NCBI RefSeq assembly: GCF_019456655.1
Contig: NZ_CP080332.1
Coordinates: 62,001-126,000 of the forward strand
Length of the DNA: 64,000 nucleotides
Direction of reading: 5' to 3'
From: Mycolicibacterium diernhoferi
GTDB taxonomy: Bacteria; Actinomycetota; Actinomycetes; Mycobacteriales; Mycobacteriaceae
Shown here: positions 622-15,065 of the stretch, in pieces
Numbering within the stretch: the stretch's first letter is position 1
How the letters are laid out: every line of letters begins with the position of its first letter
The notes under the pieces: model-generated
What the model was told of the DNA's origin: nothing
What the model saw: only the letters and a program-made list of their open reading frames with translations
Databases searched by the model: none
Position numbers and translations under genes: made by a program

Positions 622-1299
622 TCATCTCATCCAGTCGGGCTTGACGGGCAGCCCGTTGCGGTGGCGGTACTCGGCGATCGCCTTCAGGTTCAGCAGCTCC
701 AAGCGATGACCGGCGCCGAACATGTCCCAGAAGTCGCCGACCCACACGGGTCGCTCGGGCGGTGCGACCTCGGGGTACGGATTGTGGTCATAGAACGGGT
801 GGTGGCAGTTGGTCCACAAGACCACCGAGCCCGGCTTGTCGAGCACCACCTGTGCATCGACCACGCGCATCAGATAGATCATCCACAGGTGCCGGCCCTG
901 GTCCCAGGCGCAGTGATAGTCAACCGTGCGCGCCTCGGGCTGAGCCACTGTGCGAGTGTAGATTTCGGTCTCCGACCCCAGCCGGTCGTGGGCCACCCAC
1001 AATCCGTCGTCCTCGGTGGGGGTGAACCCGCGCAGGCTGTAGGTCCACTCCTCCAGGCTGCGGGTGTCGGCAAGGTACTCGTAGAGCTCATCGGGCGGAC
1101 AGTCGACGTACTCGTTGACGGTGCAGTACGGGCCGAACACCTCGTCGTGCGGATAAACAGACCGCATCATCTCCATGATGATCGGCGTCGCCTGCTCCCG
1201 TGGGGAGGTCTCGATGCGGATCACGCCCTCGATCGGGCCGGGGGTGTCGTCTCGGTCGAGCCGGTGGGCGGCGATATCCTCAAGCGCGGGCAATGACAT
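622..1299 (-). CDS. SRPBCC (START-like) family protein
   Basis: A 225-residue protein with the pattern of the SRPBCC/START hydrophobic-cavity fold: a CPPDELYEYLADTRSLEEW segment near residue 70, typical of polyketide cyclase/lipid-binding members, then alternating beta strands and a C-terminal helix (LELLNLKAIAEYRH). An AGGAGGA Shine-Dalgarno sits about 7 bases before ATG 1299. The first 20 bases overlap the end of the ThDP gene and the stop lies 8 bases before the KASIII gene, so the three are co-transcribed and probably translationally coupled. Members bind hydrophobic ligands or catalyse cyclisation or aromatisation; which applies here cannot be read from sequence. Confidence 0.75.
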   Translation of the reverse strand: MSLPALEDIAAHRLDRDDTPGPIEGVIRIETSPREQATPIIMEMMRSVYPHDEVFGPYCTVNEYVDCPPDELYEYLADTRSLEEWTYSLRGFTPTEDDGLWVAHDRLGSETEIYTRTVAQPEARTVDYHCAWDQGRHLWMIYLMRVVDAQVVLDKPGSVVLWTNCHHPFYDHNPYPEVAPPERPVWVGDFWDMFGAGHRLELLNLKAIAEYRHRNGLPVKPDWMR

Positions 1300-3028
1300 C
1301 TTCGGTCCTCCTGGTGGTGGTTTGAAACATGGGGTGGTCGAGAAACGGTGCGAAGGGCGGGATTTCGTCGGCTGAGCACTCGATGCTGACGACCGAAGGG
1401 CCGTCGGCGGCGAGCGCCGCGGACAGGGCCGGCGCCAGCGCGTCGGGGTCGGTCACGTCGACCGCGGGCAGCCCGGGAAACATCGCGGCCAACCCCGCGC
1501 CGAGGTTGCTCCGTGCGAACCGGTTGTAGCTGTATTCGCCGTTGTAGTAGAGCTGTTCGCGCGTCACGCACATGGCGTGGGCGTTGTTGTTGAACAACAC
1601 CAGCGTGATGGGCAGCCGGTGCTGGATGGCGGTGTGCAACTCGAGGCCGTGCATGTAGAACGACCCGTCGCCGGCCACGATCACGGTGCGGCGACGCCGG
1701 GCGAACGCCATGCCGATTCCGGCGCCGAAGCTGTAGCCCATGCCCCCCATCCCGAGTGCCACCACGAACCGGCCGTCGCGCCGGGCGGGCAGCTGGTGGA
1801 TCGCCGCCGCTCCGGAGTTGCCGGCGTCGACGATGATGTCCGCATCGTCGGGCAGCAGCGCGTCGAGCGCGGTGAGCGCCTCGCGGTACCGGATGCCCGG
1901 TCCATGCGGGGTCGGCGGCCTCAACTCGGTGGGGGAGGCCAAGTCGAGGGCCGGCGGCGTGTGTGGCGGGCGGCTCATGACCCTGCGGGTCAGCTCGGCA
2001 AGCGAGGACCGAAGGTCGTTGGTGTGCAGGTGATCAGCCGAGAGGTATGGCGCCGCGGACCCGATCGACAGTGTGCGGATCTGACTCAGCGCTTCATCCA
2101 GACCGGCCCGCGCGGTGACCGGCAGCCGGGTGCCCACAAGCAGGCAGACCGCACTGCCGCGGATTGCGTCGGCCACCCCGGTATGGCCCATCACCCCCGT
2201 TACGCCCAACGACGCCGATGCCATGGGGGCGCGGTTGACATCCTTGGCGTCGGGTACCGTCGCGATCCGGGCGTGCAGCGCCGCGCGGAGTCGCTCGAGC
2301 TCGTCACGGGCATCGTCTCGGGCCACCTGCTCACCGGCGATGATGGTGACCGGCCCCGAGGTTTCGCGCAGCGCCTGCAGGATCGGTTGGGGATCGTCGG
2401 CAGGGTGCCGGTCTCGGATCGCGGGCACCGTGCCGGTGCCTTGGACGGTAGCCTGCTGAACATCCTTGGGCAGCAACAACACCGCGGGACCGCCCGCCCG
2501 GGCTGCGGCCACCGCGTCGGGCAGCGCGGTCAGGATATCGGTGGGCTCGACGATGCGTCGGCAGTACACCGACACGGCCGAGAACAGCGCCTCCGCGTTG
2601 AGCGAGCCGTTGCGGCCGCTGGTGTCCTGGAAGGCACCGCATCCATCCAGCGGGGTCGGCGACTGGCCGACCAGAGCAAGCACGGGGACTCGACTGGTGT
2701 ACGACTCTCCCAGCCCGGCAACCAGATTCAGTGCGCCGCCACCCGAGGTCGCGGCCACCACACCCAGCCGCGCAGTGGCGCGACTGTAACCGTCGGCCAT
2801 GGTTGCCGCGGAGAACTCGTGTTTGGCCAGCACCGCGGTGATGCCCGGGCAGTAGAAGGCCGCATCGTAGAGATCCTCGACATTGGCTCCGTCCACACCG
2901 AAGACGTGGCCGACCCCCGCGAGGGCCAGGTGGTCGACGATGTGGTCGACGACCCGGACGCCTGCTGAGCGCGAGCCTGACCCGATGCTGGTTGCCCCGA
3001 TCGGCGGGCCCGGTAGGACGATCGCCAT
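1280..3028 (-). CDS. Thiamine-diphosphate enzyme, acetolactate synthase/benzoylformate decarboxylase-like
   Basis: A 582-residue ThDP enzyme of normal family length. The N-terminal PYR domain has the activating glutamate in LAKHEFSAATMADGYSR and the GGGALNLVAGL loop. The C-terminal PP domain carries the cofactor motif GDGSFYMHGLELHTA followed by LFNNN, which binds Mg-ThDP. ATG 3028 is chosen because GGAAGG lies about 8 bases upstream; the open frame continues to 3286 but that part has no family similarity. It heads the operon ThDP-SRPBCC-KASIII. Close relatives decarboxylate 2-oxo acids and ligate aldehydes. Amino-acid biosynthesis is unlikely because no IlvN regulatory subunit is present; a carboligase or decarboxylase for a secondary metabolite is my inference. 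Confidence 0.87.
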   Translation of the reverse strand: MAIVLPGPPIGATSIGSGSRSAGVRVVDHIVDHLALAGVGHVFGVDGANVEDLYDAAFYCPGITAVLAKHEFSAATMADGYSRATARLGVVAATSGGGALNLVAGLGESYTSRVPVLALVGQSPTPLDGCGAFQDTSGRNGSLNAEALFSAVSVYCRRIVEPTDILTALPDAVAAARAGGPAVLLLPKDVQQATVQGTGTVPAIRDRHPADDPQPILQALRETSGPVTIIAGEQVARDDARDELERLRAALHARIATVPDAKDVNRAPMASASLGVTGVMGHTGVADAIRGSAVCLLVGTRLPVTARAGLDEALSQIRTLSIGSAAPYLSADHLHTNDLRSSLAELTRRVMSRPPHTPPALDLASPTELRPPTPHGPGIRYREALTALDALLPDDADIIVDAGNSGAAAIHQLPARRDGRFVVALGMGGMGYSFGAGIGMAFARRRRTVIVAGDGSFYMHGLELHTAIQHRLPITLVLFNNNAHAMCVTREQLYYNGEYSYNRFARSNLGAGLAAMFPGLPAVDVTDPDALAPALSAALAADGPSVVSIECSADEIPPFAPFLDHPMFQTTTRRTEDVIARA

Positions 3029-3354
3029 GTTTCTTGCCTTCCATGCCGGCGCACGGGCGGTGCCGTGCGTGCACATCGAAAGGCATTCGGAAGCAGAGCC
3101 GGTTTGGATGGGCCGGATGTGAAAGAACTTCGGCGGGGTTGCGCGGCGGCTGGCATCGGAGCAGGTCGCGCCGCTGGAACAGATGCGGACACGCGTGGAG
3201 GGCTTCTCGGGTTTGGACCATCCGGTCGACGGGTAGCCCCGAATCGGTGCGGGGCGGTGTCGTGGCCGCCGCGCGGCCGCCGACACCCCCCCTTTTTCTG
3301 ACTAGTCGGCTACAGCACGGCGGATGACCAGCACCGTCCGACCGCGAACAACCG
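3029..3354. other. Gene-free spacer between ThDP operon and TetR gene
   Basis: No convincing gene was found in these 326 bases. The minus-strand frame continuing from the ThDP gene is Arg/Pro/Ser-rich and reads like GC-rich non-coding DNA. The promoter of the ThDP operon must lie here, but no clear -35/-10 pair was seen. The spacer ends with the strong hairpin listed separately. Confidence 0.5.
3256..3298. terminator. Strong GC hairpin with T-tract
   Basis: GGTGTCG and GGCCGC pair with GCGGCC and CGACACC, giving a long GC stem with a very short loop. On the plus strand it is followed by a C run and TTTTT. It lies just downstream of the minus-strand TetR gene. The T-tract would favour plus-strand termination; on the minus strand it acts at least as an insulator between tetR and the ThDP operon. 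Confidence 0.6.
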
Positions 3355-4084: not shown

Positions 4085-5074
4085 ATGGCCAACACCGGTC
4101 TCCGTCGATCGGATCGGAGTCAGGCGATGCAGCGACCGCACCGGGTGGTGGTCCTGGTACTCGACGGGGCGCTCCCGCTGGATGTCGGGATCCCGGCGGA
4201 GGTGTTCCATCCGGAGACCGGTTTCGGATACGAAGTATCGGCCTGTGGGGTCACCGCCGGAACGGTGCCGTCTCATGGGGGTTTCGGCTACGCGGTCCCG
4301 CGGGGACTGGACGCATTGGCCGACGCGGACACCATCGTCGTCCCGGGCTACGCGCCGGCGGGCCGGCAGATACCGGCGCAGGTGCGCGAGGCGCTGCGGG
4401 GCGCCGCGTCCCGCGGGACCCGCATCGCGTCGATCTGTTACGGCGCATTCGCCCTTGCGGAGGCCGGCCTGCTCGACGGCCTGCGAGCGACGACGCACTG
4501 GGACGCGGCGGTGGAACTCGCTCAGCGGCATCCGCGGATCACCGTCGAGCCGAACGTACTCTTCGTCGACGAGGGATCCGTCCTCACCTCGGCGGGCGCC
4601 GCCGCCGGTCTCGATCTGTGCCTGCACATCGTTCGGCGCGACCTCGGTGTGAGCGCGGCCAACGAGATCGCACGAGGACTCGTCACCGCGCCCTACCGAA
4701 CCGGGGGCCAGGCCCAGTACCTGCCGAAGACCAACACCGAAGTCCGCGGCCAATCCCTTGCTGCGACCCGCGAATGGGCCATGATGCGGCTCGACCAGCC
4801 GCTCACGATTGCCGGACTCGCGGCACACGCCCGGATGTCACCCCGCACGTTCCTGCGCCGTTTCGCCGAAGAGACCGGCAGCACCCCGCTGGAGTGGATC
4901 CTGCGGGCGCGGGTCGACACCGCCCGCGAACTCCTGGAGAGCACGAGGCTGCCGGTCGACCGCATCGCCGAACAGGTCGGCCTGGGAACCGGATCGAACC
5001 TGCGGCTGCATTTCCGCCGGCTCCTGGATGTGACCCCCACCGAGTACCGCGCCACCTTTGCCGGGCCGAGCTGA
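4085..5074 (+). CDS. GlxA-type AraC-family regulator with DJ-1/PfpI domain
   Basis: A 329-residue two-domain regulator. Residues about 20-190 form a DJ-1/PfpI (class I glutamine amidotransferase-like) sensor with the nucleophile-elbow cysteine in ASICYGAF (Cys118). Residues about 220-325 hold two AraC helix-turn-helix motifs: LTIAGLAAHARMSPRTFLRR, then VDRIAEQVGLGTGSNLRLHF and the terminal TPTEYR. The overall plan matches GlxA family regulators. It lies 151 bases from the divergent tetR, with the palindrome/promoter copy 1 between. ATG 4127 is an alternative start. It probably activates a nearby metabolic gene, perhaps the convergent MDR oxidoreductase; the effector is not known. Confidence 0.88.
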   Translation: MANTGLRRSDRSQAMQRPHRVVVLVLDGALPLDVGIPAEVFHPETGFGYEVSACGVTAGTVPSHGGFGYAVPRGLDALADADTIVVPGYAPAGRQIPAQVREALRGAASRGTRIASICYGAFALAEAGLLDGLRATTHWDAAVELAQRHPRITVEPNVLFVDEGSVLTSAGAAAGLDLCLHIVRRDLGVSAANEIARGLVTAPYRTGGQAQYLPKTNTEVRGQSLAATREWAMMRLDQPLTIAGLAAHARMSPRTFLRRFAEETGSTPLEWILRARVDTARELLESTRLPVDRIAEQVGLGTGSNLRLHFRRLLDVTPTEYRATFAGPS

Positions 5075-5107
5075 TACCGCGAGGGTCGCCCTGCCCGCAG
5101 CGTTGCA

Positions 5108-6115
5108 CTATGCGGCGCGCGGGGGAAGCTCGACAGTTTCGCCCGCGACGTCGATCGCGACCTTGCCGCGGAGCGCATAGGACCGCCTGTTCTCCAGGAG
5201 TTCATGAGCCTCGTCCATTCGAGCGAGCGGAAGAGTCGCGCCGATGACGGGCTTGACGAGACCGCGCTCGACCAGTGTGGTGAGCGCGTCCAGCTTTCCC
5301 CGGTTCTGTCGGGTGAAGACGAAGTGGTAGGCGGCGTTCCGGCCCCACGCCTCGATGAGGTTCTGCGGCTGGGCGATGTCGACGATGCTGACGACGCGTC
5401 CGGCGTCGGCGAGCGTCAGCGGGCTTCGGGTGAGCGCGTCGCCACCGATCGTGTCGAAGACGACATCGACTCCTCTGCCTCGCGTCATCGTGGTCACGGC
5501 ATCGACGTAGTCTGCCGACGTGAAGTCGATCGCCGCATCCGCGCCGAGCGAGCGCACGAACTCGTGGTCGCCGGCCTTCGCGGTGGTGATCACCTGTGCG
5601 CCCATCGCTTTCGCGACCTGGATCGCGATCGTGCCGACCCCGCCCGCGCCGCCGTGGATGAGGATCGTCTCTCCCACGGTGAGCTGAGCTCGCGTCACCA
5701 GGGACTCCCAGACCGTTCCGCCGACGAGCGTCAGGCTCGCCGCCTCCAGATGGCTGAGGTTCGCCGGTTTCCGGCCGACCAGGTCGACGTCGACGACGTG
5801 CTGCTCGGCGTAAGAGCCGGGGCCACCGAAGATCCGGGGGGTGTAGTACACCTCATCGCCGGTTCGGAACTCGGTCACGTGGGATCCGACTTCCTCGATC
5901 ACACCGGAGATGTCGTGCCCGATGATCGCCGGGAGCGGCACATGATCCGCGTAGTCTCCGCGACGGATCTGAAAGTCGAGTGGGTTGACCGCGGTCGCAT
6001 GGACACGCACCCGTACCTGGCGGGGTGCGACTTGCGGGACGCGGACCTCGCGCAACTCGAACGCATCGAACCCTCCGAACCGGGCGAGCACAACGGCTTT
6101 CATCGGATCTGTCAT
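5108..6115 (-). CDS. NADP-dependent MDR oxidoreductase (quinone oxidoreductase-like)
   Basis: A 335-residue medium-chain reductase of the zinc-free quinone oxidoreductase class. It has the GroES-like N-terminus ([12 protein letters not shown] near residue 70) and a Rossmann cofactor motif [19 protein letters not shown] near residue 150; the structural-zinc cysteine cluster is absent. ATG 6115 is preferred because GAGGA lies about 10 bases upstream; the longer frame would start at a GTG that itself overlaps that ribosome binding site. It is convergent with the AraC gene (33-base gap) and a likely target of it. Substrates in this family are quinones or alpha,beta-unsaturated carbonyls. Confidence 0.87.
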
Positions 6116-6418
6116 ATCGGTGTTCCTCACCGTGGTCGGGTATCGCGGCGCGCCAGGACGGCGGCCCTCTCAGTGTCGCCTCCAGAATCCACACATTCCA
6201 GTGGCCACGATGCCAATATTCGCGAGGATAGTGACACGGCTGTCGCGCGACGCCACAAAACCCCCGGCCACGGTCGGCACGGGAATGTGCCGGTACAGGC
6301 ACTGCGTTGACCAATCTGACAGCGCACCCAGATCTCCGAAATAAGGCTGTCGCAGCCGGTTTCGCGAGTCATCGCGCAGGCCACCATTCACCACCCAGAG
6401 GAAAGTAAGGGACCGAAC

Positions 6419-6670
6419 ATGGCATCGAATACCTTGACTCGTCGGCTCACAGCAGCGGTAGGCGGTGCCGCCATCCTCGCGATGATCGGCTTCACCGCAG
6501 CATGCAGCACCGACAGCGACAAGCCCGCAGAACCGACCACGACCACCACGGAGCCCTCGCTGACGCCGACCGAGAAGGTGGTCAAACCCACCGCCGAAGA
6601 CTTCACTCCGCCGGTGAAGGCACCGCAGCTGACGGTCAGGCCGCCGAACGGGCCCGTTCTCCGCGATTGA
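6419..6670 (+). CDS. Small Thr-rich lipoprotein (paralogue 1)
   Basis: An 83-residue predicted lipoprotein. An Arg-containing n-region and hydrophobic stretch end in the lipobox FTAAC, so Cys29 should be lipidated and the mature part anchored outside the membrane. The mature part is a flexible Asp/Lys then poly-Thr/Pro/Glu linker with the conserved end FTPPVKAPQLTV. A second copy with the same signal peptide, Thr run and FTPPV..APQ tail is at 18731, and both share the bases GGACCGAAC directly before the ATG. No enzymatic domain is visible. It is followed by a strong terminator. Function unknown. Confidence 0.82.
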   Translation: MASNTLTRRLTAAVGGAAILAMIGFTAACSTDSDKPAEPTTTTTEPSLTPTEKVVKPTAEDFTPPVKAPQLTVRPPNGPVLRD

Positions 6671-6686
6671 GTACGCGTGTCGCTGT

Positions 6687-6725
6687 GACGTCGCCGCCGA
6701 CAGAATACTGGTCGGCGGCGACGTC
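6687..6725. terminator. Bidirectional terminator
   Basis: A perfect 15-base stem (GACGTCGCCGCCGAC paired with GTCGGCGGCGACGTC) around a 9-base loop lies between the convergent lipoprotein gene and the Rieske-ThDP gene. No strong T-run follows, which is usual for mycobacterial terminators. Confidence 0.7.
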
Positions 6726-6730
6726 GTCTC

Positions 6731-8710
6731 CTAACGGGATTGGGGATCGGTGATGATCTCGACGAGCGCCGGCCCGCGATGGTCGAGGGCTCGGGTGATC
6801 GCCACGGAGAGGTCGGCGGGGTCCTCCACCCGGACACCGTGGGCCCCGCAGTTGCGGGCGAACGCCGCGAAATCGGGGTTGCGCAGCGAGGTCTGCCATA
6901 CCGCATACTCGGCGGCCCGCTGTTCGTCGCTGATCTTCGCGAGTTCACCGTTGTTGAGCAGGATGTGCGTGATGTTCATGCCGTACTTGACCGCCGTGGT
7001 GATCTCGGCAAGGTACTGGCCGAATCCGCCGTCGCCGGTGATCGCCACGACGGGCCGGTCAGGGTCGGCAGCCCAGGCTCCCATGGCGGCAGGGAACCCG
7101 AAGCCGATGGATCCCAGATAGCCCGACATCAGGACCGACTGCTGTTTGGTCTCGAAATACCGCCCGAACGAGTACGCGTGATCGCCGACGTCGACCGCGA
7201 GAACCGCGTTCGCCGGCACCAGGCCGTTGAGTGCCTCGATGACCGCCGCTGCAGCTACGCCGCGGTCGGAACGCGCCATCGCCCGGCGAGTCTTCTCGGC
7301 CCGCCAGATGCTCCATCGCGCCGCGATCTCGGAGCGCTGGTCGACCAGCTCCGGATGCGGACGCAGCCGAGCACTCAGTGCAGCGCAACTCATTCCGACG
7401 TCGCCGAGTAGCGGTACCGTCACCGGCTTGAACCGGCCGAGAGCGAGCGGGTCGGTGTCGACCTGGATTGTCGGCTTGTACGGCGAAATACCGGTGTGGT
7501 CGGAGAACGACGCGCCGAACACGAGCAGCAGATCGGCCTTGTTCATCATCCAGGACGCCACCGGGGTACCCGAGCGGCCCAGCACACCGCAGGCCAGGGG
7601 ATGCGCATCGGAGATCTGGCCCTTGGCCTTGAAGGTGGTCAGCACGGGGGCGTGCAGGGTCTCGGCGAGTGCGAGCACGGCATCCATGTCGTGTTTGGCG
7701 CCGGCGCCGACAATCACCACGGGGCGGGTCGCTGCCGAGATCTGTTCCAGGGCCTGCTGCAAAGGTGCCGTCGGGGGCCCGGTCCGCAGATCCGGCATGC
7801 GGCCCTGTGGTCCGGACGCCGGATGATCGGGAGCATCCAGCACCTGAACGTCGTCAGGTATGACCAAGTGGCCGACGCCGCGCTGCAGGATCGCGTGCTT
7901 GAGCGCCAGCGTCATCAGTTCGCCGTGTTCCGAACCGGCGCGCACCATTTGGGAGTAGACCGCCACATCGGCGAAGGCGGCGAGCAGGTCGATATCCTGA
8001 AATGCACCTTTGCCCGCCACCGAGGAGTTGACGTTCCCCGATATCGCCAGCACCGGCGCGCGATCAGATCTGGCGTCGTAGAGTCCGGTCAGCAGGTTCG
8101 TCGAACCCGGCCCGGCAATCCCGAAGCACGCCGCGGGCCGGCCGGTGAGTTTTCCATAGGCGGCGGCGGCGAAGGCCGCGGCTCCTTCGTGACGGACGCC
8201 GAAATACCTGAGCTTTCCCTCGGTTTCCGCGCGACGAAGCGCTTCGGCGACACCCAGGTTGGAGTGGCCGACCATGCCGAACACGGTGTCCACGCCCCAG
8301 TTGATCATCGTCTCGACGAGGACATCACTGACTGTGCGGGTGTGGGCGCCCGGCGGTGTTGCGGCGACGTAGACGCCGTCGTCACGGACCTGTACCGGGT
8401 AAGTGGGGACGTCGAAATCGGGTCCCCCGGCCGCCTGACCGGTGAACGGGTCGAAATCGAACCCATGCCAGGGACAGCGGATCTTGTCGTTCTCCACAGT
8501 CCCCTGGCCGAGTGGTCCTCCCTGGTGCGGGCAGCGGTTGTCGATGGCGCCGTAACGGCCATGCAGCCTGGTCACCGCGACGGTCTTCAGCCCCACCGGA
8601 CAGACCCGCACTTCGCCCTCGACGAGCTCGTCCGCATCGGCGACTTTGTGCCAGTGAGGGTTTCGCTGCCGGTTGTCGGCTGCGTCGGGGGTGTGGTTCG
8701 TACTGGTCAC
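6731..8710 (-). CDS. Rieske ferredoxin-ThDP enzyme fusion (pyruvate oxidase-like)
   Basis: A 659-residue fusion. Residues about 20-120 are a Rieske [2Fe-2S] ferredoxin domain with Cys60-x-His62 and Cys79-x2-His82 as cluster ligands. From about residue 130 a complete ThDP enzyme of the pyruvate oxidase/acetolactate synthase type follows, with the PYR-domain glutamate in GVRHEGAAAFAAAAYGK and the cofactor motif GDGGFGQYLAE ending in LLNNGE. The start is GTG 8710, whose GTGA overlaps the stop of the Rieske-FMN gene upstream. Longer frame to 8974 is rejected because it overlaps that gene. Electrons from a 2-oxo acid or aldehyde adduct on ThDP could pass to the Rieske cluster; the substrate is unknown. 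A plain ThDP oxidase would not have this ferredoxin module. Confidence 0.9.
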   Translation of the reverse strand: MTSTNHTPDAADNRQRNPHWHKVADADELVEGEVRVCPVGLKTVAVTRLHGRYGAIDNRCPHQGGPLGQGTVENDKIRCPWHGFDFDPFTGQAAGGPDFDVPTYPVQVRDDGVYVAATPPGAHTRTVSDVLVETMINWGVDTVFGMVGHSNLGVAEALRRAETEGKLRYFGVRHEGAAAFAAAAYGKLTGRPAACFGIAGPGSTNLLTGLYDARSDRAPVLAISGNVNSSVAGKGAFQDIDLLAAFADVAVYSQMVRAGSEHGELMTLALKHAILQRGVGHLVIPDDVQVLDAPDHPASGPQGRMPDLRTGPPTAPLQQALEQISAATRPVVIVGAGAKHDMDAVLALAETLHAPVLTTFKAKGQISDAHPLACGVLGRSGTPVASWMMNKADLLLVFGASFSDHTGISPYKPTIQVDTDPLALGRFKPVTVPLLGDVGMSCAALSARLRPHPELVDQRSEIAARWSIWRAEKTRRAMARSDRGVAAAAVIEALNGLVPANAVLAVDVGDHAYSFGRYFETKQQSVLMSGYLGSIGFGFPAAMGAWAADPDRPVVAITGDGGFGQYLAEITTAVKYGMNITHILLNNGELAKISDEQRAAEYAVWQTSLRNPDFAAFARNCGAHGVRVEDPADLSVAITRALDHRGPALVEIITDPQSR

Positions 8711-10335
8711 AGCGGCACCGCTCCTGCATAGGAGATTCCGCTCAAGTACGCGAAATCCCGGTCGAATGTTGTGAGATCGTCGAGGTCGAAGTCGGCCAGG
8801 CGGCGGTGTCCACACGCCCGGGCCAGCACCACCATCAAGTCCACGACGGAGCGCAAATAGCGATTCAGTCGCTGGGCGGCTGCCGGCACCGGGAGCCGCG
8901 CGCGCAGCCGCGGGTCTTGAGTGGCGATGCCCGCAGGGCACGCATTGGTATGGCAGGCGCGCATTCCCACGCACCCGATCGCCTGCAGTGCCGCGTTGGA
9001 CAAGGCGATCGCGTCGGCACCCAGTGCCAAGGCCTTGACCATGTCCGCCGGGGTGCGGATGCCACCGGTGATCACCAACGTGACGTGATCGGCGTCGGAC
9101 CGGTCCAGGTGTCGCCGGGCCCGTGCCAGCGCCGGGATGGTGGGTACGGAGATGTTGTCACGGAAGATCGTCGGTGTGGCTCCGGTCCCGCCACCACGGC
9201 CGTCGAGGATCAGGTAGTCCACGCCGATCTCCAGCGCGGCATCGATGTCCTGCTCGATGTGCTGTGCGCTCATCTTGTATCCGACCGGAATTCCGCCGGA
9301 CTCGTCACGCACCCGCGCGGCGAAATCCTTGAACTGTGCCAGGGTCTCCCACTCCGGGAACCGAGCCGGTGAGATGGCCGGCGTCCCCGGGACCAATCCC
9401 CGAACCTCGGCGATGCGTTCCACCACCTTATTTCCGGGCAGGTGTCCACCGGTGCCGGTCTTGGCGCCTTGCCCGCCTTTGAAGTGAAATGCCTGCACCT
9501 TGGGCAGATGCTCGAAGCTCCATCCGAACCGGCCGGAGGCCAGTTCGTAGAAGTATCTGGAGTTCAGCTGTTGTTCTTCGGGAAGCATGCCGCCCTCACC
9601 CGAGCAGATTCCGGTGCCGGCCAGTTCGGCTCCGGCGGCAAGTGCGGTCTTGGCTTCTTGGGACAGCGCGCCGAAGCTCATATCGCTGATGAACAGCGGG
9701 ATGTCGAGGGTCAGTGGTCGCCTGGCCCCGGGGCCGATCACGGTTTCGGTGCTGACCGGTTCGTCGTCCAACAGCGGCAGCCGACGCAGTTGGGCGGGCA
9801 ACAACTGGATCGAATCCCAAGAAGGGAGCCGATTGCGCGGAACTCCCATCGCGTCCACCGGGCCGTCGGGACCCACTCGGCTGAGCCCATGTGCGGCGAA
9901 TTCGTGAATCTGCGTGACGAAGGGTTCTTCGGACGTATCGGTGGGCGTGATCCAGGCGCCTTGATAGCCATCGTCGCCAGACGGTCGCGGGTTCGACGCG
10001 GCGAACGCGAACACTGCCGATTCGTCAACGTAGACTTCGCCGTCGGTCACCCAGGCGGGGAACATGGTGAGCGCCACCGACGGATTGACCGGCGCGATAC
10101 CGGTTTTCGTGTCATACCGCCACCCGTGGAGATCACATATCAAAGCGTCGCCCTCGATATGCCCGTCCGCCAATCGCGCGCCACGATGCGCGCAACGCCC
10201 GTGCAGCGCTGAGATGTCATTGCCCGAGCGGATCAGGACCAGGTCCACTCCCGCGACTTCAACCCCGTACGGTGCTCCCTCGGGTATGTCCGCCAGCGCT
10301 GCCGCGTGTACGGCTTTTCTCACCACCGCGCTCAC
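8707..10335 (-). CDS. Rieske ferredoxin-FMN/3Fe-4S glutamate synthase-like fusion
   Basis: A 542-residue fusion. Residues about 10-105 are a Rieske domain with Cys48-x-His50 and Cys67-x2-His70. The rest is the FMN-binding barrel of the GltB central domain: LFISDMSFGALSQEAKTAL, the GEGGM loop, FHFKGGQGAKTGTGGHLPG, GYKMSAQ, DGRGGGTGATP and VITGGIRTPADMVKALALGADA. The C-x5-C-x4-C motif of the [3Fe-4S] cluster (CVGMRACHTNAC) is kept. The glutaminase domain of true GltB is absent, so ordinary glutamate synthase activity is unlikely. GTG 10335 is supported by GAGGA about 10 bases upstream and by overlap with a 23-codon ORF. It probably couples flavin chemistry to Rieske electron transfer together with the next gene. 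Confidence 0.9.
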   Translation of the reverse strand: MSAVVRKAVHAAALADIPEGAPYGVEVAGVDLVLIRSGNDISALHGRCAHRGARLADGHIEGDALICDLHGWRYDTKTGIAPVNPSVALTMFPAWVTDGEVYVDESAVFAFAASNPRPSGDDGYQGAWITPTDTSEEPFVTQIHEFAAHGLSRVGPDGPVDAMGVPRNRLPSWDSIQLLPAQLRRLPLLDDEPVSTETVIGPGARRPLTLDIPLFISDMSFGALSQEAKTALAAGAELAGTGICSGEGGMLPEEQQLNSRYFYELASGRFGWSFEHLPKVQAFHFKGGQGAKTGTGGHLPGNKVVERIAEVRGLVPGTPAISPARFPEWETLAQFKDFAARVRDESGGIPVGYKMSAQHIEQDIDAALEIGVDYLILDGRGGGTGATPTIFRDNISVPTIPALARARRHLDRSDADHVTLVITGGIRTPADMVKALALGADAIALSNAALQAIGCVGMRACHTNACPAGIATQDPRLRARLPVPAAAQRLNRYLRSVVDLMVVLARACGHRRLADFDLDDLTTFDRDFAYLSGISYAGAVPL

Positions 10336-10403
10336 CGACCCGCATCCTCAGGTCCGCTTGATGGCTTGCCGGCCCAGGACCGGTCGTGGTTCACGGCGTG
10401 CAT
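10332..10403 (-). CDS. 23-residue small ORF coupled to the Rieske-FMN gene
   Basis: ATG 10403 has a good GGAG Shine-Dalgarno 7 bases upstream and opens 23 codons, MHAVNHDRSWAGKP then SSGPEDAGR. The stop TGA overlaps the GTG start of the Rieske-FMN gene as GTGA. It lies in the 130-base gap after the sigma-factor gene. The peptide is hydrophilic, without cysteines or a membrane segment, so it does not look like a ZAS anti-sigma factor. It may be a leader or coupling ORF. Too short for codon statistics; the support is the ribosome site and the overlap. Confidence 0.4.
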   Translation of the reverse strand: MHAVNHDRSWAGKPSSGPEDAGR

Positions 10404-10465
10404 CGATCTTCTCCGGTGTTGGTGCGGTGGAATGAGCGCGAAGGCGTGTTCGAGGCTGCTGTCGC

Positions 10466-11122
10466 TCAAGTCAGAGCCGGCGCCAGGTTACGCCGGCGAT
10501 GTCGGACCGTGGTCTCGGCGCCGGATGTGCTTGACGCCAGGAGGTATCCGCGTTCAGCGGCGAGCTCGGCGAGCAGAACCCGTAGCCGTGCTCTGCCGCG
10601 ATGAATTCGCGACATGACCGTGCCCGGCGGGGTTCCCATGATTTCGCAGATCTCTTTGTGGGGGAGGTTCTCGACATCGGCGTAGTACACCGCCATCCGA
10701 AACACCTCGGGCAATGCGTCCAAGGCCGCTTTGATGTCGTTGTCGGGTAGGGACTCCAAGACGATGAGTTCCGCGGAGCGCAGTGCTCTCGGTGACCGTT
10801 CGGCGTCGGCGGCCAGCTGCCGGTCGGGGAGCGAGCTCGTGAGGGTCTCCGCGGGCCGGCGTATCCGCTTGCGGTAAGCACTGATGTGCGCATTGGTCTG
10901 AATTCGAAGGAGCCACCCCATGAGATTCGTTCCGGGCTGGTAGCTCCGAAACCCTGCGTATGCCTTGATCATCGTCTCTTGCACCAGGTCTTCAGCGTCG
11001 GCGCGCTGCAGGGTCATCCGCATCGCCGCGGCGAAGAGCCCGTCCAAAAGGGGGATCACCTCGGTCTCGAAACGGGAGCCCAGTTCGTCGTCGGTGTCGT
11101 CGCGTCGATCAGGCATGCTCAT
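10466..11122 (-). CDS. ECF RNA polymerase sigma factor, SigH/SigR-like
   Basis: A 218-residue ECF sigma factor. Region 2 (about residues 35-90) reads [18 protein letters not shown] then [11 protein letters not shown], which binds core polymerase and the -10 element. Region 4 (about 145-195) reads [20 protein letters not shown] then [15 protein letters not shown], the -35 reading helix. Both are close to SigH/SigR, the disulfide- and heat-stress class. ATG 11122 is chosen because AGGA lies 8 bases upstream; ATG 11143 would add seven residues. No HxxxCxxC anti-sigma gene follows, unlike the usual sigH-rshA arrangement. Instead the Rieske fusion genes follow. The palindromic promoter at 11320-11363 points at this gene. 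The C-terminal tail after region 4 is Arg-rich and unusual. Confidence 0.88.
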
Positions 11123-11177
11123 GGCAGTGTTCCTAGGCTTCATCGGATGACGTCAGCTCCGCGCCATGGGCGAGAAA

Positions 11178-11297
11178 CTATGTCTCCCAACTGGTTTCGG
11201 TTATGGGTATAACGGCGTCATCGAGGTCGGTGGCACGCGGATCTCCCTTGTCGGGCATCGGGCGCTCAGGAGCAGGCGACTCCGCGAGGGACTGCAT
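11178..11297 (-). CDS. Possible 39-residue leader ORF upstream of the sigma gene
   Basis: ATG 11297 opens 39 codons (MQSLAESPAPERPMPDKG, then an acidic stretch ending ITETSWET), starting about 16 bases after the transcription start predicted from the palindromic promoter and ending 55 bases before the sigma gene. No Shine-Dalgarno is evident. The protein is acidic and hydrophilic. It could be a small protein or chance reading of a long 5' leader; chance is not excluded. Confidence 0.25.
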   Translation of the reverse strand: MQSLAESPAPERPMPDKGDPRATDLDDAVIPITETSWET

Positions 11298-11319
11298 GTT
11301 CTGAAATGGGGCAAACAAC

Positions 11320-11363
11320 ACGATACGAAACGACCCGTCTCGTGTCAAGACGGGGCGTTTCGT
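11320..11363 (-). promoter_or_regulatory. Palindromic operator with embedded promoter (copy 2)
   Basis: Arms ACGAAACGACCCGTCT (11325-11340) and AGACGGGGCGTTTCGT (11348-11363) pair over 16 bases with one mismatch around a 7-base spacer. Read on the minus strand, TTGACA (11348-11343) and TATCGT (11325-11320) are 17 bases apart and point at the sigma-factor gene. The plus-strand esterase gene starts 80 bases away on the other side, so one regulator could control both. Core and spacer match copies 1 and 3. Confidence 0.75.
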
Positions 11364-11443
11364 CTTGTGGGGATGTGGTCCGCTGAGCATCCAGTGCCAA
11401 GAGTCGGGCATTGGGGCGTGAACTAAACCGAGGAGCGGCGGCG

Positions 11444-12448
11444 TTGACCCCCTCGATGTCAACTACCAGCACTGGCGAGACACACCGCCGCCGACCTCGG
11501 GTGAAGCATCGGCGCAGACGTGCCGTCGCGGCCCTCGCGCTGGCGATGACCATGGCGCTGACGAGCGCGACAGCCGCCGTCCAGTTCGGCGCGCCGTGGC
11601 AGATGGGCGCCGGGGATCGCAATCATGTGTTCGTCGGCGACGGCGGGTATCAGCGCTACCAGGTGCACGTCCCGCCCCGCCACGACGGGGCCTCCGCGCT
11701 ACCGGTGGTCATGGCGATACACGGTTGCGGGATGACCGGATTCGGGTGGAACTCGATGAAAGCGACCACCCAGTTCAACCGCCTGGCCGACCGCGAAGGG
11801 TTCATCGTCGTGTATCCGACACAGCGACTGCTCCGCAGCGCGGTCAACTGCTGGAATTCGACCGAGCCGCGTGAACAACATCGCGGCAGTGGGGAGCCCG
11901 CACTGTTGGCCGGTGTCGCGCGACAGGTCGTCGAGGATTACGGCGCCGACCCGCGCCGGGTCCATGTCGTGGGCGCGTCCTCCGGGGCGGGTGCCGCCGT
12001 CATTCTCGCAGCCACCTACCCCGATGTATTCGCGACGGTCACGTCCGTCGCGGGCGGTGAGTACGGGTTGAATCAGGTGCGCCCGGACGATCCGGGCGCG
12101 ACGCCGCCGGAGTACACCGCGCGTCAGGCGTGGGTCCCGCCACTGGTCGCCAATCGCCTTGTCGCGCACTGGACCGCGGTGCACGATCTGGTCGACGACG
12201 GTCTGCTCAATGACAGCCTGGCTGTGGCGGAAGAAACGCACCACGTGCCGGCCGCATCCGGCGGCCACGCGTACACCCGGACCACCCGCACGGCGGCAGG
12301 GGGTGCGATGGTCATCGAGTCGTATCTCGTCGACGGCATGGGGCATGCCTGGCCCGGGCCTTTCGGGAGCGGCATGTTCACCGACGAAGCAGGGCCCGAC
12401 GCAAGCGCTCTCGCTTGGGATTTCGCGAGCCGATATGCACTCTCCTGA
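11444..12448 (+). CDS. Secreted PHB-depolymerase/LpqC-type esterase
   Basis: A 334-residue exported alpha/beta hydrolase. An Arg-rich n-region (HRRRPRVKHRRRRAV) and hydrophobic core ending TSATAA form a signal peptide. The mature part has AIHGCGMTGFGW (oxyanion loop), the nucleophile motif VVGASSGAGAAV, and the histidine in DGMGHAWPGP, as in poly(3-hydroxybutyrate) depolymerase and feruloyl-esterase type enzymes. TTG 11444 is favoured because AGGAG lies 8 bases before it; ATG 11456 is the alternative. It is divergent from the sigma-factor gene across operator copy 2. A role in hydrolysing extracellular esters or polyesters is likely; the exact substrate cannot be told. Confidence 0.85.
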   Translation: MTPSMSTTSTGETHRRRPRVKHRRRRAVAALALAMTMALTSATAAVQFGAPWQMGAGDRNHVFVGDGGYQRYQVHVPPRHDGASALPVVMAIHGCGMTGFGWNSMKATTQFNRLADREGFIVVYPTQRLLRSAVNCWNSTEPREQHRGSGEPALLAGVARQVVEDYGADPRRVHVVGASSGAGAAVILAATYPDVFATVTSVAGGEYGLNQVRPDDPGATPPEYTARQAWVPPLVANRLVAHWTAVHDLVDDGLLNDSLAVAEETHHVPAASGGHAYTRTTRTAAGGAMVIESYLVDGMGHAWPGPFGSGMFTDEAGPDASALAWDFASRYALS

Positions 12449-12474
12449 ACCCTGACGACACAAAACACCCCGAG

Positions 12475-12513
12475 ACGTACCGTCTTGACGCGAGACGATA
12501 CGGGTCGTATTGT
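12475..12513 (+). promoter_or_regulatory. Palindromic operator with embedded promoter (copy 3)
   Basis: Arms ACGTACCGTCT and AGACGATACGG match at 9 of 11 positions around the same spacer TGACGCG as copy 1 (12475-12503). TTGACG (12485-12490) and TATTGT (12508-12513) are 17 bases apart. The transcript would start at or next to ATG 12521, seven bases after the -10 box, as in leaderless mycobacterial mRNAs. Confidence 0.72.
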
Positions 12514-12520
12514 TCGTGCA

Positions 12521-12751
12521 ATGTCCACGGGCGGGCAGCACCGCGTCGCCGCCCGCGTTTCCCCATCAGAAGCCAGAACTCGCTGCGGAACAAGCTTTTG
12601 CGGCACAGAATCGGAGACTTCGATGTCCGCACTGAGAGGTAAGACCGCACTCGTCATCGGAGCCACATCGGGCATCGGCCTCGCCGCGGCCCGCGCGCTC
12701 GCCGAGGAAGGCGCCTACGTGTTTGTCGACGGCGGGAGCAGCCAGTTCTGA
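12521..12751 (+). pseudogene. SDR remnant: N- and C-termini joined by an internal deletion
   Basis: From ATG 12623 (GGAGACTTCG upstream) the frame reads MSALRGKTALVIGATSGIGL then AAARALAEEGAYVF, the first beta-alpha-beta unit of a short-chain dehydrogenase, and passes directly in frame into VDGGSSQF and a stop. VDGG followed by a hydrophobic end is the usual C-terminus of classical SDRs. About 200 central codons, including the catalytic Ser-Tyr-Lys, are missing. The promoter (copy 3) and ribosome site are intact, and the stop overlaps the next start (TGATG). In the same frame ATG 12521 would give a 76-residue leaderless product. The remnant cannot be an active dehydrogenase; it may still serve translational coupling. 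Confidence 0.75.
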
Positions 12752-14322
12752 TGCCAACGAAACGATCGGCGCTTCCGAAGACGAGCGGCGGCGCGAAGAC
12801 CCTTACTCCTGTGGTTCTCGCAGCGGCGATCACGATGGCGGGCTGCTCACCAGATGGATCGGCCGTCCACTCGTCATTTGACCTGGACCGGTTCTACTCA
12901 CAACAGATCGCCTGGGAGTCCTGCGAGAGCTACACCAATACCTCCATCGAAACCGCAGTCTTCGCCCTGGCGCCGACCATGGAGTGCGGGCACCTGAAAG
13001 TCCCGCTGAATTACCAAGAACCGCAGGGGAAGACGGCACTTGTCGCGGTCGCGCGAGTGCCGGCCCGCGGCCAGTCCATCGGCTCGTTGGTGATCAACCC
13101 CGGTGGGCCCGGCGGTTCCGGATTGTTCGCCACCGCGGCCACGGCACTGGCGCTTCCGGACGGTCGCCTGACCGAGAACTTCGACCTGGTCGGCTTCGAT
13201 CCGCGTGGGGTCGGCAGCTCGGAACCTGCCATCGAATGTTTCACCGACGCCGAAGCTGATCGAGGTGACTTCATGCTGAGCACCCAGGGCACCACGCAGC
13301 AATGGACAGAACAGGATACGAAGGGCTTTGTCGATCGGTGCGCGGAACGTTCGGGCGGGATCGAGGTGTTGACCAGCGTCGGCACCCGCGATGCGGCGCG
13401 TGACATCGACGTCCTGCGGGCCGTGCTTGGTGATGAGAAGCTGACCTTCCTGGGGCAGAGTTACGGAACGAGGCTGGGCGCGGTGTACGCCGAGCAGTTC
13501 CCGCAGAACGTGCGCGCGATGCTGCTCGACGGCGCCATCGATTCGACCCAGGGCACTGTCGAGCGTCGGATCGGCGCGTACGCGGGGTTCCAGCGCTCCT
13601 TCGAGCAGATGGCCGCATACTGCGCCACCGAGACCGACTGTCCGCTGGGCGACGACCCGGCCCGTGCAACCGAGCAGTTCCAGCAGATCGTGCGTCCGCT
13701 CTACGGACAGCCGGTGCCGGCGTTGAGCTCCGATCTCGGGTTCGACGAGGCGATCGGCGGGGTGATCTCCGGTCTCTACAGCGAAGCGGCGTGGCCACGA
13801 ATTATCAAGGGCATAAGCCAGTTACAGCAGGGCCGCGGCGATGAACTGCTGCAGTTGAGTTACGACTTCTCGCTCCGCGACACCGAGGGACGCTGGCCCA
13901 ACTTCGTCGAGGCGCTCTATGCCATCAACTGTATGGACGAGGAAAGGCTCACCGAGGAGCAGGGCAATGCGCTGCGTACCCGGATATTCGAGGACGCACC
14001 GTTCATGGATCCCGGAGTCGCGCTCACCGGCGCACGGGACGGCTGCGAACAGTGGCCGGTCGAGCCGACGCTGGGCATCCCGTACGCGACCGACATCGTG
14101 GGACTACCGCCCACACTGGTCGTATCGATCACCGGCGACCCCACAACCCCACATGCCGGCGGCCTCGCGCTGGCCGAAACGCTGGGCAGCACCTTGCTCA
14201 CCGTGGAGGGCGAAGGGCACACCATCGTCATGGCCGGAACCAATCAGTGCGTCAACGAGATAGCCGCCGACTACCTGATCGACCTCACGCTGCCGCCGGC
14301 CGGGGCGTCCTGCGAACTGTGA
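12751..14322 (+). CDS. Alpha/beta hydrolase lipoprotein, tripeptidyl-aminopeptidase-like
   Basis: A 523-residue exported hydrolase. Lipobox ITMAGC places the lipidated cysteine at residue 32. The oxyanion region NPGGPGGSG (116-124), the nucleophile elbow GQSYG (Ser237), the TAP-like C-terminal domain and the histidine in GEGHTIV (near residue 485) match the tripeptidyl aminopeptidase/CaeA (Hip1) family of actinobacteria. Cysteine-rich segments suggest disulfides outside the cell. ATG 12751 overlaps the stop of the SDR remnant (TGATG), so expression probably comes from promoter copy 3. Likely role: cell-wall-associated peptide or ester hydrolysis. Confidence 0.87.
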   Translation: MPTKRSALPKTSGGAKTLTPVVLAAAITMAGCSPDGSAVHSSFDLDRFYSQQIAWESCESYTNTSIETAVFALAPTMECGHLKVPLNYQEPQGKTALVAVARVPARGQSIGSLVINPGGPGGSGLFATAATALALPDGRLTENFDLVGFDPRGVGSSEPAIECFTDAEADRGDFMLSTQGTTQQWTEQDTKGFVDRCAERSGGIEVLTSVGTRDAARDIDVLRAVLGDEKLTFLGQSYGTRLGAVYAEQFPQNVRAMLLDGAIDSTQGTVERRIGAYAGFQRSFEQMAAYCATETDCPLGDDPARATEQFQQIVRPLYGQPVPALSSDLGFDEAIGGVISGLYSEAAWPRIIKGISQLQQGRGDELLQLSYDFSLRDTEGRWPNFVEALYAINCMDEERLTEEQGNALRTRIFEDAPFMDPGVALTGARDGCEQWPVEPTLGIPYATDIVGLPPTLVVSITGDPTTPHAGGLALAETLGSTLLTVEGEGHTIVMAGTNQCVNEIAADYLIDLTLPPAGASCEL

Positions 14323-14360
14323 GGCCGTTCGGCCGTCCGGCTCGACGCATTCATCAAGAC

Positions 14361-15065
14361 TCAGCCGAGCGATCCAAGCCCCGGCGTCGGCAACTGTCGT
14401 TTGACAACCGGGTCGAGGATTTCGATCTCGCCGGCTTCGAGACCGTCGAGCGCCAAGCGGACCAGATCGGCCGGGTCCATCACGGCGCCGTCCTCGAATG
14501 TGATTCCGTGGCGTTCTGCGAAGTCGAAGAGGGTCTGGGTGCCCACCAGGCCGGGCACCAGTGCAGCAACCTGAGTTCCCTGCGCGGCCAGTTCGAGTCG
14601 CACGCCGTTGGTGAGCCCCCACTGCGCGGACTTCGCGGCGGCGTAGGCCGTGTTGCCGTCGACGGTGGCCCATGCCGCCGCCGAGAGCACGTTGAGGATG
14701 GCCCCGCCGCCGTTGCGCGCGAGGATGGGTGCGAATGCCCGGATCATGGCGAGGGTGCCGTAGTAGTTCGAATCCATGGTCGACCGGATCGCGTTCAGGT
14801 CCCCGGTCACCAGGTTGCCGCCCGCGGTGTCGGCGGCATTGTTGATCAGCACGTCCACGTCTCCGGCCAACGCGGCGACCGCATCGACCGATGACTGGTC
14901 GGTGATGTCGAGGCGCAGCACCTCCGCGCCGGGAATGCGCACCAGTTCGGGACGACGTGCCGTGGCGTAGACCTTGGCCCCGCGTCGGATCAGGTCCACG
15001 CCGAACTGATGGCCGATCCCGCGGTTCGATCCGGTCACCAGGGCGGTGGCTCCATAGAGCTTCAT
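14361..15065 (-). CDS. Short-chain dehydrogenase/reductase
   Basis: A 234-residue classical SDR. It has the nucleotide-binding GSNRGIGHQ motif near the N-terminus, the structural NNAAD segment, a catalytic serine in LSAAAWAT and the Tyr-x3-Lys pair in AYAAAKSAQWG. Asp at the end of beta-2 is not seen and Arg follows, so NADP(H) is the more likely cofactor. It is divergent from a TetR gene at 15176; the 110-base gap holds two TetR-type palindromes, so substrate-induced expression is likely. The substrate is unknown. Confidence 0.88.
   Translation of the reverse strand: MKLYGATALVTGSNRGIGHQFGVDLIRRGAKVYATARRPELVRIPGAEVLRLDITDQSSVDAVAALAGDVDVLINNAADTAGGNLVTGDLNAIRSTMDSNYYGTLAMIRAFAPILARNGGGAILNVLSAAAWATVDGNTAYAAAKSAQWGLTNGVRLELAAQGTQVAALVPGLVGTQTLFDFAERHGITFEDGAVMDPADLVRLALDGLEAGEIEILDPVVKRQLPTPGLGSLG

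Follow-up and report, generated by a model that had tools for sequence, protein, structure and literature searches.

The 2-oxoacid:ferredoxin oxidoreductases, which act on 2-oxo acids, are thiamine diphosphate (ThDP) enzymes with an iron-sulfur cluster, like one of the two enzymes described here, but they represent a different ThDP family and contain a [4Fe-4S] cluster. In glutamate synthase, as outlined in the available part of PMC8097209, electrons travel from [4Fe-4S] to [3Fe-4S] clusters and on to flavin mononucleotide (FMN), the donor being GltD or, in the ferredoxin form, ferredoxin. The fusion of CDGSH with GltB is typified by the type 5 CISD (available part of PMC3174974), and the combination of CDGSH and glutamate synthase domains is also mentioned in the accessible part of PMC5859297. 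The window analysed here, i.e. the whole stretch of 64,000 nucleotides from Mycolicibacterium diernhoferi (contig NZ_CP080332.1, positions 62,001 to 126,000), encodes two adjoining proteins, a Rieske-FMN/[3Fe-4S] enzyme (P0002) and a Rieske-ThDP enzyme (P0001), which are very probably functionally linked. They may constitute a dedicated electron-transfer pair, in which electrons run from a 2-oxo acid through ThDP (and probably flavin adenine dinucleotide, FAD), the two Rieske domains, [3Fe-4S] and FMN to an imino or oxo acid, a reading to which, as a whole statement, a probability of about 0.42 is given. The initial annotation of this DNA knew of no described pathway with this pairing, and topic searches of the literature likewise yielded neither a characterised homologue nor a described counterpart of the Rieske-ThDP/Rieske-FMN pair, some papers being judged by titles alone and most subscription papers lying outside reach.

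P0002 (542 amino acids; 8707..10335; all features lie on the minus strand of the window unless stated otherwise) is a GltB-type synthase domain behind a Rieske domain, as identified by translation, Pfam and alignment to GltB structures. Its N-terminal Rieske [2Fe-2S] domain (residues about 8–104; 10024..10314; translation, Pfam match at residues 10–86, and family alignment) contains the ligand pairs C48xH50 and C67xxH70, the Glu_synthase FMN domain covers residues 204–509 (8809..9726; Pfam, 292.7 bits), and the [3Fe-4S] ligand motif C-x5-C-x4-C (CVGMRACHTNAC; residues 455–466; 8938..8973; translation) lines up with the cysteines of GltB in solved structures. No glutaminase domain was found by Pfam in the 542 residues. 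P0001 (659 amino acids; 6731..8710) is of the pyruvate oxidase/PoxB type according to translation, Pfam and structure matches, and contains an N-terminal Rieske [2Fe-2S] domain (residues 19–105; 8396..8656; translation and Pfam) with the ligand pairs C60xH62 and C79xxH82, followed by the ThDP body (residues about 125–657; 6740..8338), where Pfam places the TPP_enzyme N, M and C domains between residues 126 and 652. The stop codon of the FMN gene and the start codon of the ThDP gene overlap in a GTGA (8707..8710). Both Rieske domains possess the CxH...CxxH ligands and score 63.8 and 63.4 bits against a Pfam cut-off of 20.3. The initial annotation had thus correctly read an N-terminal Rieske domain in each gene, the GTGA joint, a GltB-type FMN/[3Fe-4S] body without glutaminase and a pyruvate-oxidase-like ThDP enzyme. 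As the M. diernhoferi genome contains 26 Rieske matches, Rieske domains as such are common in it, and the unusual part is the two fusions. Wrongly assigned start codons were dismissed as an origin of the fusions, as 81 rows of the ThDP family alignment and 39 of the 42 rows of the FMN alignment show them as well.

Among 148 genomes of the genus, searched at 1e-60 for the FMN protein and at 1e-100 for the ThDP fusion, the FMN protein was matched in 25, of which 14 are of the Rieske type with 72–100% identity (best match per genome), while the remaining 11 are relatives of 38–39% identity aligned only beyond the Rieske domain. The ThDP fusion is present in 14 of the 148 genomes, which are the same 14, and local searches found the two genes adjacent in all of them. 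When genomes of named species were scanned with an alignment of the ThDP family, at least 591 stretches matched a pattern, at least 555 of them encoding relatives, and the best 80 loci were kept; 49 of these are well covered, having 3 kb or more of sequence on either side. In 45 of the 80 loci (30 of the 49 well-covered ones), the FMN gene is no more than 4 kb away from the ThDP fusion, upstream on the same strand in 38, downstream in six and opposite in one. The 45 paired loci belong to 11 phyla (Actinomycetota, Acidobacteriota, Bacteroidota, Cyanobacteriota, Gemmatimonadota, Ignavibacteriota, Myxococcota, Nitrospirota, Omnitrophota, Planctomycetota and Pseudomonadota) as assigned from record titles, one of which carries no taxon, and many loci are metagenome bins. 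For the 19 well-covered loci lacking an adjacent FMN gene, a genome search located one elsewhere in 14 genomes (two partial at contig ends and one of the CDGSH type), and an FMN partner is present somewhere in the genome for 44 of the 49 well-covered ThDP fusions. A sample of 296 genomes from the phylum includes five with both genes, two with the FMN gene only and four with the ThDP fusion only (Fisher p 1.4e-7); G423, G444 and G486, where the matches begin after the Rieske domain with 41–42% identity, were left out of this count. The distances among the ThDP and FMN proteins are correlated (r 0.76 over 40 loci, and 0.64 over the 33 without mycobacteria), none of 2000 shuffles being as high, and species relatedness contributes to this correlation. 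On the counts of adjacency (14/14 in the genus and 45/80 named loci) and of FMN genes located elsewhere (14 of the other 19), chance adjacency was rejected, and the rarity of adjacent genes that the initial annotation had named as a danger to its reading was not found. In one genome (G014), the FMN gene (L063:7357-8965) is broken into two reading frames near position 8672, which reflects a frameshift or an assembly error.

The loss of cluster ligands in relatives, which had likewise been named as a danger, is not seen either, as all four Rieske ligands are kept in 81/81 ThDP rows, the Rieske ligands in 39/42 FMN rows and the [3Fe-4S] cysteines in 42/42. Among the three FMN exceptions, L125 is cut by a contig end, while L116 and L153 carry two CDGSH motifs instead of the Rieske domain, as does the gene of genome G637 (L219). 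A tree of 58 bodies, built without the short rows L125 and L220 and without four outgroup rows missing the trimming motif, unites the 18 CDGSH rows in a single clade (100/99), which branches beside or within the Rieske rows; the root of the tree is unsure, as the one remaining outgroup row sits on a very long branch. Among database relatives of the CDGSH version (the best 120 of at least 8000 scored), its architecture is widely found. The window protein shares with the type 5 CISD the FMN/[3Fe-4S] body, by descent according to this unsurely rooted 58-row tree, and a small N-terminal [2Fe-2S] domain with histidine ligands, but differs in having a Rieske domain, no tandem CDGSH and a Rieske-ThDP partner. 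The presence of a different module of this kind (CDGSH) in one lineage argues that a His-ligated [2Fe-2S] carrier is needed at this place. The body shared with type 5 CDGSH proteins and the frequent occurrence of the FMN enzyme without the ThDP enzyme were both missing from the initial annotation.

The model of the ThDP enzyme (pLDDT 88.2) finds its best structural matches in acetohydroxyacid synthase (AHAS) and pyruvate oxidases, with a TM score of up to 0.92 (target length) between its body and the PoxB core. As in pyruvate oxidase, PoxB and pyruvate:quinone oxidoreductase, the whole ThDP body with three TPP_enzyme domains, the catalytic glutamate (Glu175) and the GDG motif are present, whereas the window enzyme adds the N-terminal Rieske domain, contains Lys592 instead of a phenylalanine and lacks the C-terminal tail: the alignment to PoxB ends at residue 527 of 572, and the protein ends five residues later. 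In PoxB this tail has a role in membrane binding, and the nearest relatives of the ThDP enzyme bind FAD. The NCBIfam equivalog cut-offs are missed (PRK08611, 397.7 vs 742 bits; PRK09124, 319.6 vs 792 bits). In the FMN enzyme, Lys292 and Arg312 are kept and the glutamine of the GltB motif GGQLPG is replaced by His298, each in 42/42 rows; the lysine, glutamine and arginine at these positions of GltB presumably contact 2-oxoglutarate. Compared with the glutamate synthase alpha subunit and the ferredoxin-dependent glutamate synthase (GltB), the FMN enzyme has the same FMN domain, [3Fe-4S] cysteines and aligned Lys292 and Arg312, but contains none of the glutaminase, central and beta-helix domains, has histidine for glutamine and carries the fused Rieske domain, which by analogy can be regarded as a natural substitute for the donor of glutamate synthase (GltD or ferredoxin).

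In the proposed relay, a 2-oxo acid would be decarboxylated and oxidised on ThDP by the PoxB-like enzyme, probably with FAD, and single electrons would pass to its own N-terminal Rieske cluster rather than to the quinone pool, since the PoxB C-terminal tail is absent. Through a presumed direct contact of the two proteins, the Rieske domain of the FMN enzyme would accept these electrons in the role that ferredoxin or GltD has in glutamate synthase, and would feed [3Fe-4S] and then FMN, which may reduce an imino or oxo acid at the GltB-like site, ammonia-dependent reductive amination being a first guess. Of the redox relay put forward in the initial annotation, the conserved two-component pair with intact ligands and common adjacency has stood, and the flow of electrons from a 2-oxo acid is what we infer as the most economical reading. 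A more far-reaching version, i.e. a soluble keto-acid-driven reductase, in which PoxB-like oxidative decarboxylation drives a GltB-like synthase via two matched Rieske domains and bypasses NAD(P)H, ferredoxin and quinones, is considered somewhat unlikely.

Several observations weigh against the relay. The position of Phe479 in the pyruvate oxidase (POX) of L. plantarum is occupied by Lys592 in 81/81 ThDP rows, so that POX-like FAD chemistry is not assured; this lysine is a mark of the ThDP-fusion family that can not be interpreted with certainty. Five of the 19 non-adjacent genomes, three of them cyanobacterial, have no close FMN gene, and four genomes of the 296-genome phylum sample have the ThDP fusion only. 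In a sample of 185 gammaproteobacterial genomes, the FMN family occurs in 27 (at 1e-120) versus three for the ThDP fusion, and one of these three (G634) is the seed of the sample. Seven of the 27 were matched over the Rieske part, including all three with the ThDP fusion, and 20 over the body only; the ThDP fusion is found in none of these 20, a further difference between the type 5 CISD and the window protein, and seven of them read as tandem CDGSH. The loci L235 and L242 yielded no class (Rieske or CDGSH), and no conserved gene cluster around the CDGSH-type FMN genes was found by comparing gammaproteobacterial neighbours. M. diernhoferi itself possesses a second Rieske-FMN paralogue, which is 70% identical and located beside pnp at an unrelated locus. 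This paralogue (L064:8631-10256; C1:2532648-2534255) lies between pnp and an M16 peptidase gene, near a class A beta-lactamase gene, and no ThDP fusion adjoins it. Genome G073 contains an additional FMN paralogue about 5 kb from its pair. The dependence is hence one-sided, as most of the ThDP fusions examined have an FMN partner in their genome, while many FMN enzymes occur where the ThDP fusion is absent. As the FMN enzyme is the more widespread partner, it may be the more general reductase, to which the ThDP fusion was added as a dedicated source of electrons.

The frequent occurrence of the FMN enzyme alone would also suit an arrangement, possible if doubtful, in which the two enzymes serve the same pathway without a direct relay, each Rieske domain exchanging electrons with a third carrier, such as a ferredoxin reductase or a membrane protein, while the substrates are successive or parallel. 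Candidates for such a carrier are an MsrQ/ferric-reductase-like membrane protein with a Rieske domain, which in other phyla recurs in the vicinity of the pair or of the ThDP fusion (cluster c4, 10 loci, 3/10 members annotated), and a flavin-reductase-like gene adjoining certain ThDP fusions that have no FMN gene beside them (cluster c9, seven loci, one annotated; 3/49 well-covered loci, none of these with an FMN gene). However, at the 27 FMN-carrying well-covered loci (27 by gene-call count, 30 by sequence search), c4 is present within 4 kb in six and c9 in none. A reverse flow, with oxidation of an amino or hydroxy acid by the FMN enzyme and, on the ThDP side, a non-oxidative or reductive C–C bond enzyme of the AHAS kind whose redox state is controlled by its Rieske domain, is quite unlikely. 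It would accord with the place of AHAS, the FAD of which is not used for net oxidation, among the best structural matches, and with Lys592 where solved POX and PoxB have phenylalanine. Yet the best NCBIfam score is that of a pyruvate oxidase (PRK08611), albeit well under its cut-off, and GltB-type sites act reductively in glutamate synthase (available part of PMC8097209). It is highly unlikely that the Rieske domains lie outside the catalytic electron path, as sensors or structural elements through which redox state or pH would switch the enzymes: the CDGSH clusters replacing them in some relatives are pH-sensitive via the histidine ligand (available part of PMC3174974), but the ligands of the [3Fe-4S] cluster, through which electrons enter glutamate synthase, are preserved in the FMN body, and a carrier role is at least as compatible with the exchange for another redox-active [2Fe-2S] domain.

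A stress operon of this lineage under control of a sigma factor, as initially proposed, is very improbable. The gene of a SigH-like extracytoplasmic function (ECF) sigma factor (P0003; 10466..11143; NCBIfam and locus comparisons; the initial annotation implies a start at the in-frame ATG of 11122) ends 130 bases before the FMN gene start on the same strand, and a same-strand SigH-like gene lies upstream in two other genus loci and three named mycobacteria as well. A SigH-like gene is, however, present in only 3/14 genus stretches, being not found in the other 11, and at 3/7 named mycobacterial loci, the other 73 named loci showing no match above 28% identity within the stretch; no SigH-type promoter (GGAAY-N15-20-GTT, 16 matches in the whole window) was found upstream of the sigma or FMN gene; genes of a TetR cluster are commoner neighbours (7/14 genus stretches, two members annotated); and a MarR gene adjoins the likely pair of M. 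smegmatis. The sigma factor is hence a local neighbour rather than part of the conserved unit, its candidacy as a defining part was rejected on these counts, and the claim that the pair is made under stress is left without support. At the locus itself, its description as SigH-like without a visible ZAS partner holds. P0003 scores 237 bits against TIGR02947 (SigH_actino), just below the curated cut-off of 251.55, and belongs to the four strong ones among the 13 SigH-like matches of the M. diernhoferi genome. SigH is associated with a nearby ZAS anti-sigma partner, for which no credible candidate was found here, the sole HxxxCxxC in frames of at least 50 codons (window 5000–14500) belonging to a frame of 65 codons within the ThDP gene, whereas the best SigH of the genome does have an HxxxCxxC frame in its own locus. 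In two relatives (L062:4062-5123 and L099:5310-6404), a SnoaL-like gene scoring just below the Pfam cut-off directly precedes the SigH-like gene, an order which we take to be reminiscent of ECF factors with SnoaL partners.

Should the proposed relay be real, environmental mycobacteria (M. smegmatis probably among them), cyanobacteria, acidobacteria, planctomycetes and others would couple keto-acid oxidation to GltB-type reduction with neither nicotinamide nor free ferredoxin involved. The keto-acid-driven reductase, if true, would amount to a redox shunt that has gone unrecognised across many bacterial phyla, and would provide a first function for the uncharacterised Rieske- and CDGSH-linked glutamate-synthase-like enzymes. 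The names given in source records, where there are any (such as glutamate synthase, glutamate synthase-related protein, pyruvate oxidase or thiamine pyrophosphate-dependent enzyme), hide a conserved pair with its own electron carriers. Because a partner for the Rieske form of the FMN enzyme can be read from the gene order, the electron source of that form becomes testable, and the exchange of Rieske and CDGSH on the same FMN body offers a route to asking about the role of mitoNEET-type clusters in bacteria.

The FMN enzyme is encoded in M. smegmatis (P0057, P0039). The available part of PMC8866557 lists MSMEG_5593 ('pyruvate dehydrogenase'), MSMEG_5594 ('ferredoxin-dependent glutamate synthase') and MSMEG_5595 (MarR regulator) as genes in this order, which are downregulated in an altRP mutant and in the wild type grown in ZRM, taken to be zinc-replete medium. 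From their names and gene order rather than from sequence, MSMEG_5593 and MSMEG_5594 are probably the pair. For MSMEG_5594, the accessible part of PMC4881515 reports values of 22.86, 82.38 and 26.82 in three conditions, which in our own reading are androstenedione, cholesterol and glycerol, in this order. Both proteins appear in two proteomics tables (PMC8525676 and PMC8281650), and the available parts of these four papers contain no study of the pair itself.

Genus neighbourhoods otherwise vary, the recurrent members besides the TetR cluster being a zinc-type alcohol dehydrogenase/quinone oxidoreductase-like gene (5108..6130 in the window; domain searches), present in 6/14 stretches. In other phyla, DUF5996-like and MsrQ-like/Rieske genes are recurrent neighbours, which the initial annotation did not include and which make a wider Rieske network possible. 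DUF5996-like proteins (cluster c2) occur beside the pair or the FMN gene in 22 loci (including L157:8075-8950), and their single-linkage cluster is near 15/49 well-covered named loci, with members ranging from strong Pfam matches (L117, L061) to weak or none (L142, L157, L169, L108). DUF5996 lies directly upstream of the pair in 4/14 genus loci and is absent from the M. diernhoferi genome, and was rejected as a universal third part on these grounds. The model of the L157 protein (pLDDT 91.4) has no good PDB match (best E 0.18) and thus gives no functional hint, and no mention of DUF5996 was found in the literature searched. A DUF5996-like gene also accompanies the Rieske-type FMN gene of gammaproteobacterial L258, which has no ThDP neighbour. 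The MsrQ-like/Rieske gene, a third Rieske fusion, is located at L119, L126, L140, L142, L143, L145, L148, L159, L163 and L165; in eight loci it is followed by an unnamed protein of about 265 amino acids, and in three by a GNAT gene (one annotated, as OlsB-like ornithine acyltransferase). In cyanobacterial L105, L112 and L133, ThDP-Rieske fusions from genomes without a close FMN partner are adjoined by a flavin-reductase-like gene (annotated in L105), which is a possible alternative partner of the fusion. Within the window, an open reading frame of 83 amino acids on the plus strand (6419-6670) is convergent with the ThDP gene and has a signal-peptide-like start by eye and no NCBIfam match, and an AHAS-like ThDP gene without a Rieske domain (1280-3286, minus strand), 27% identical to the ThDP body, lies about 3.4 kb downstream of the pair.

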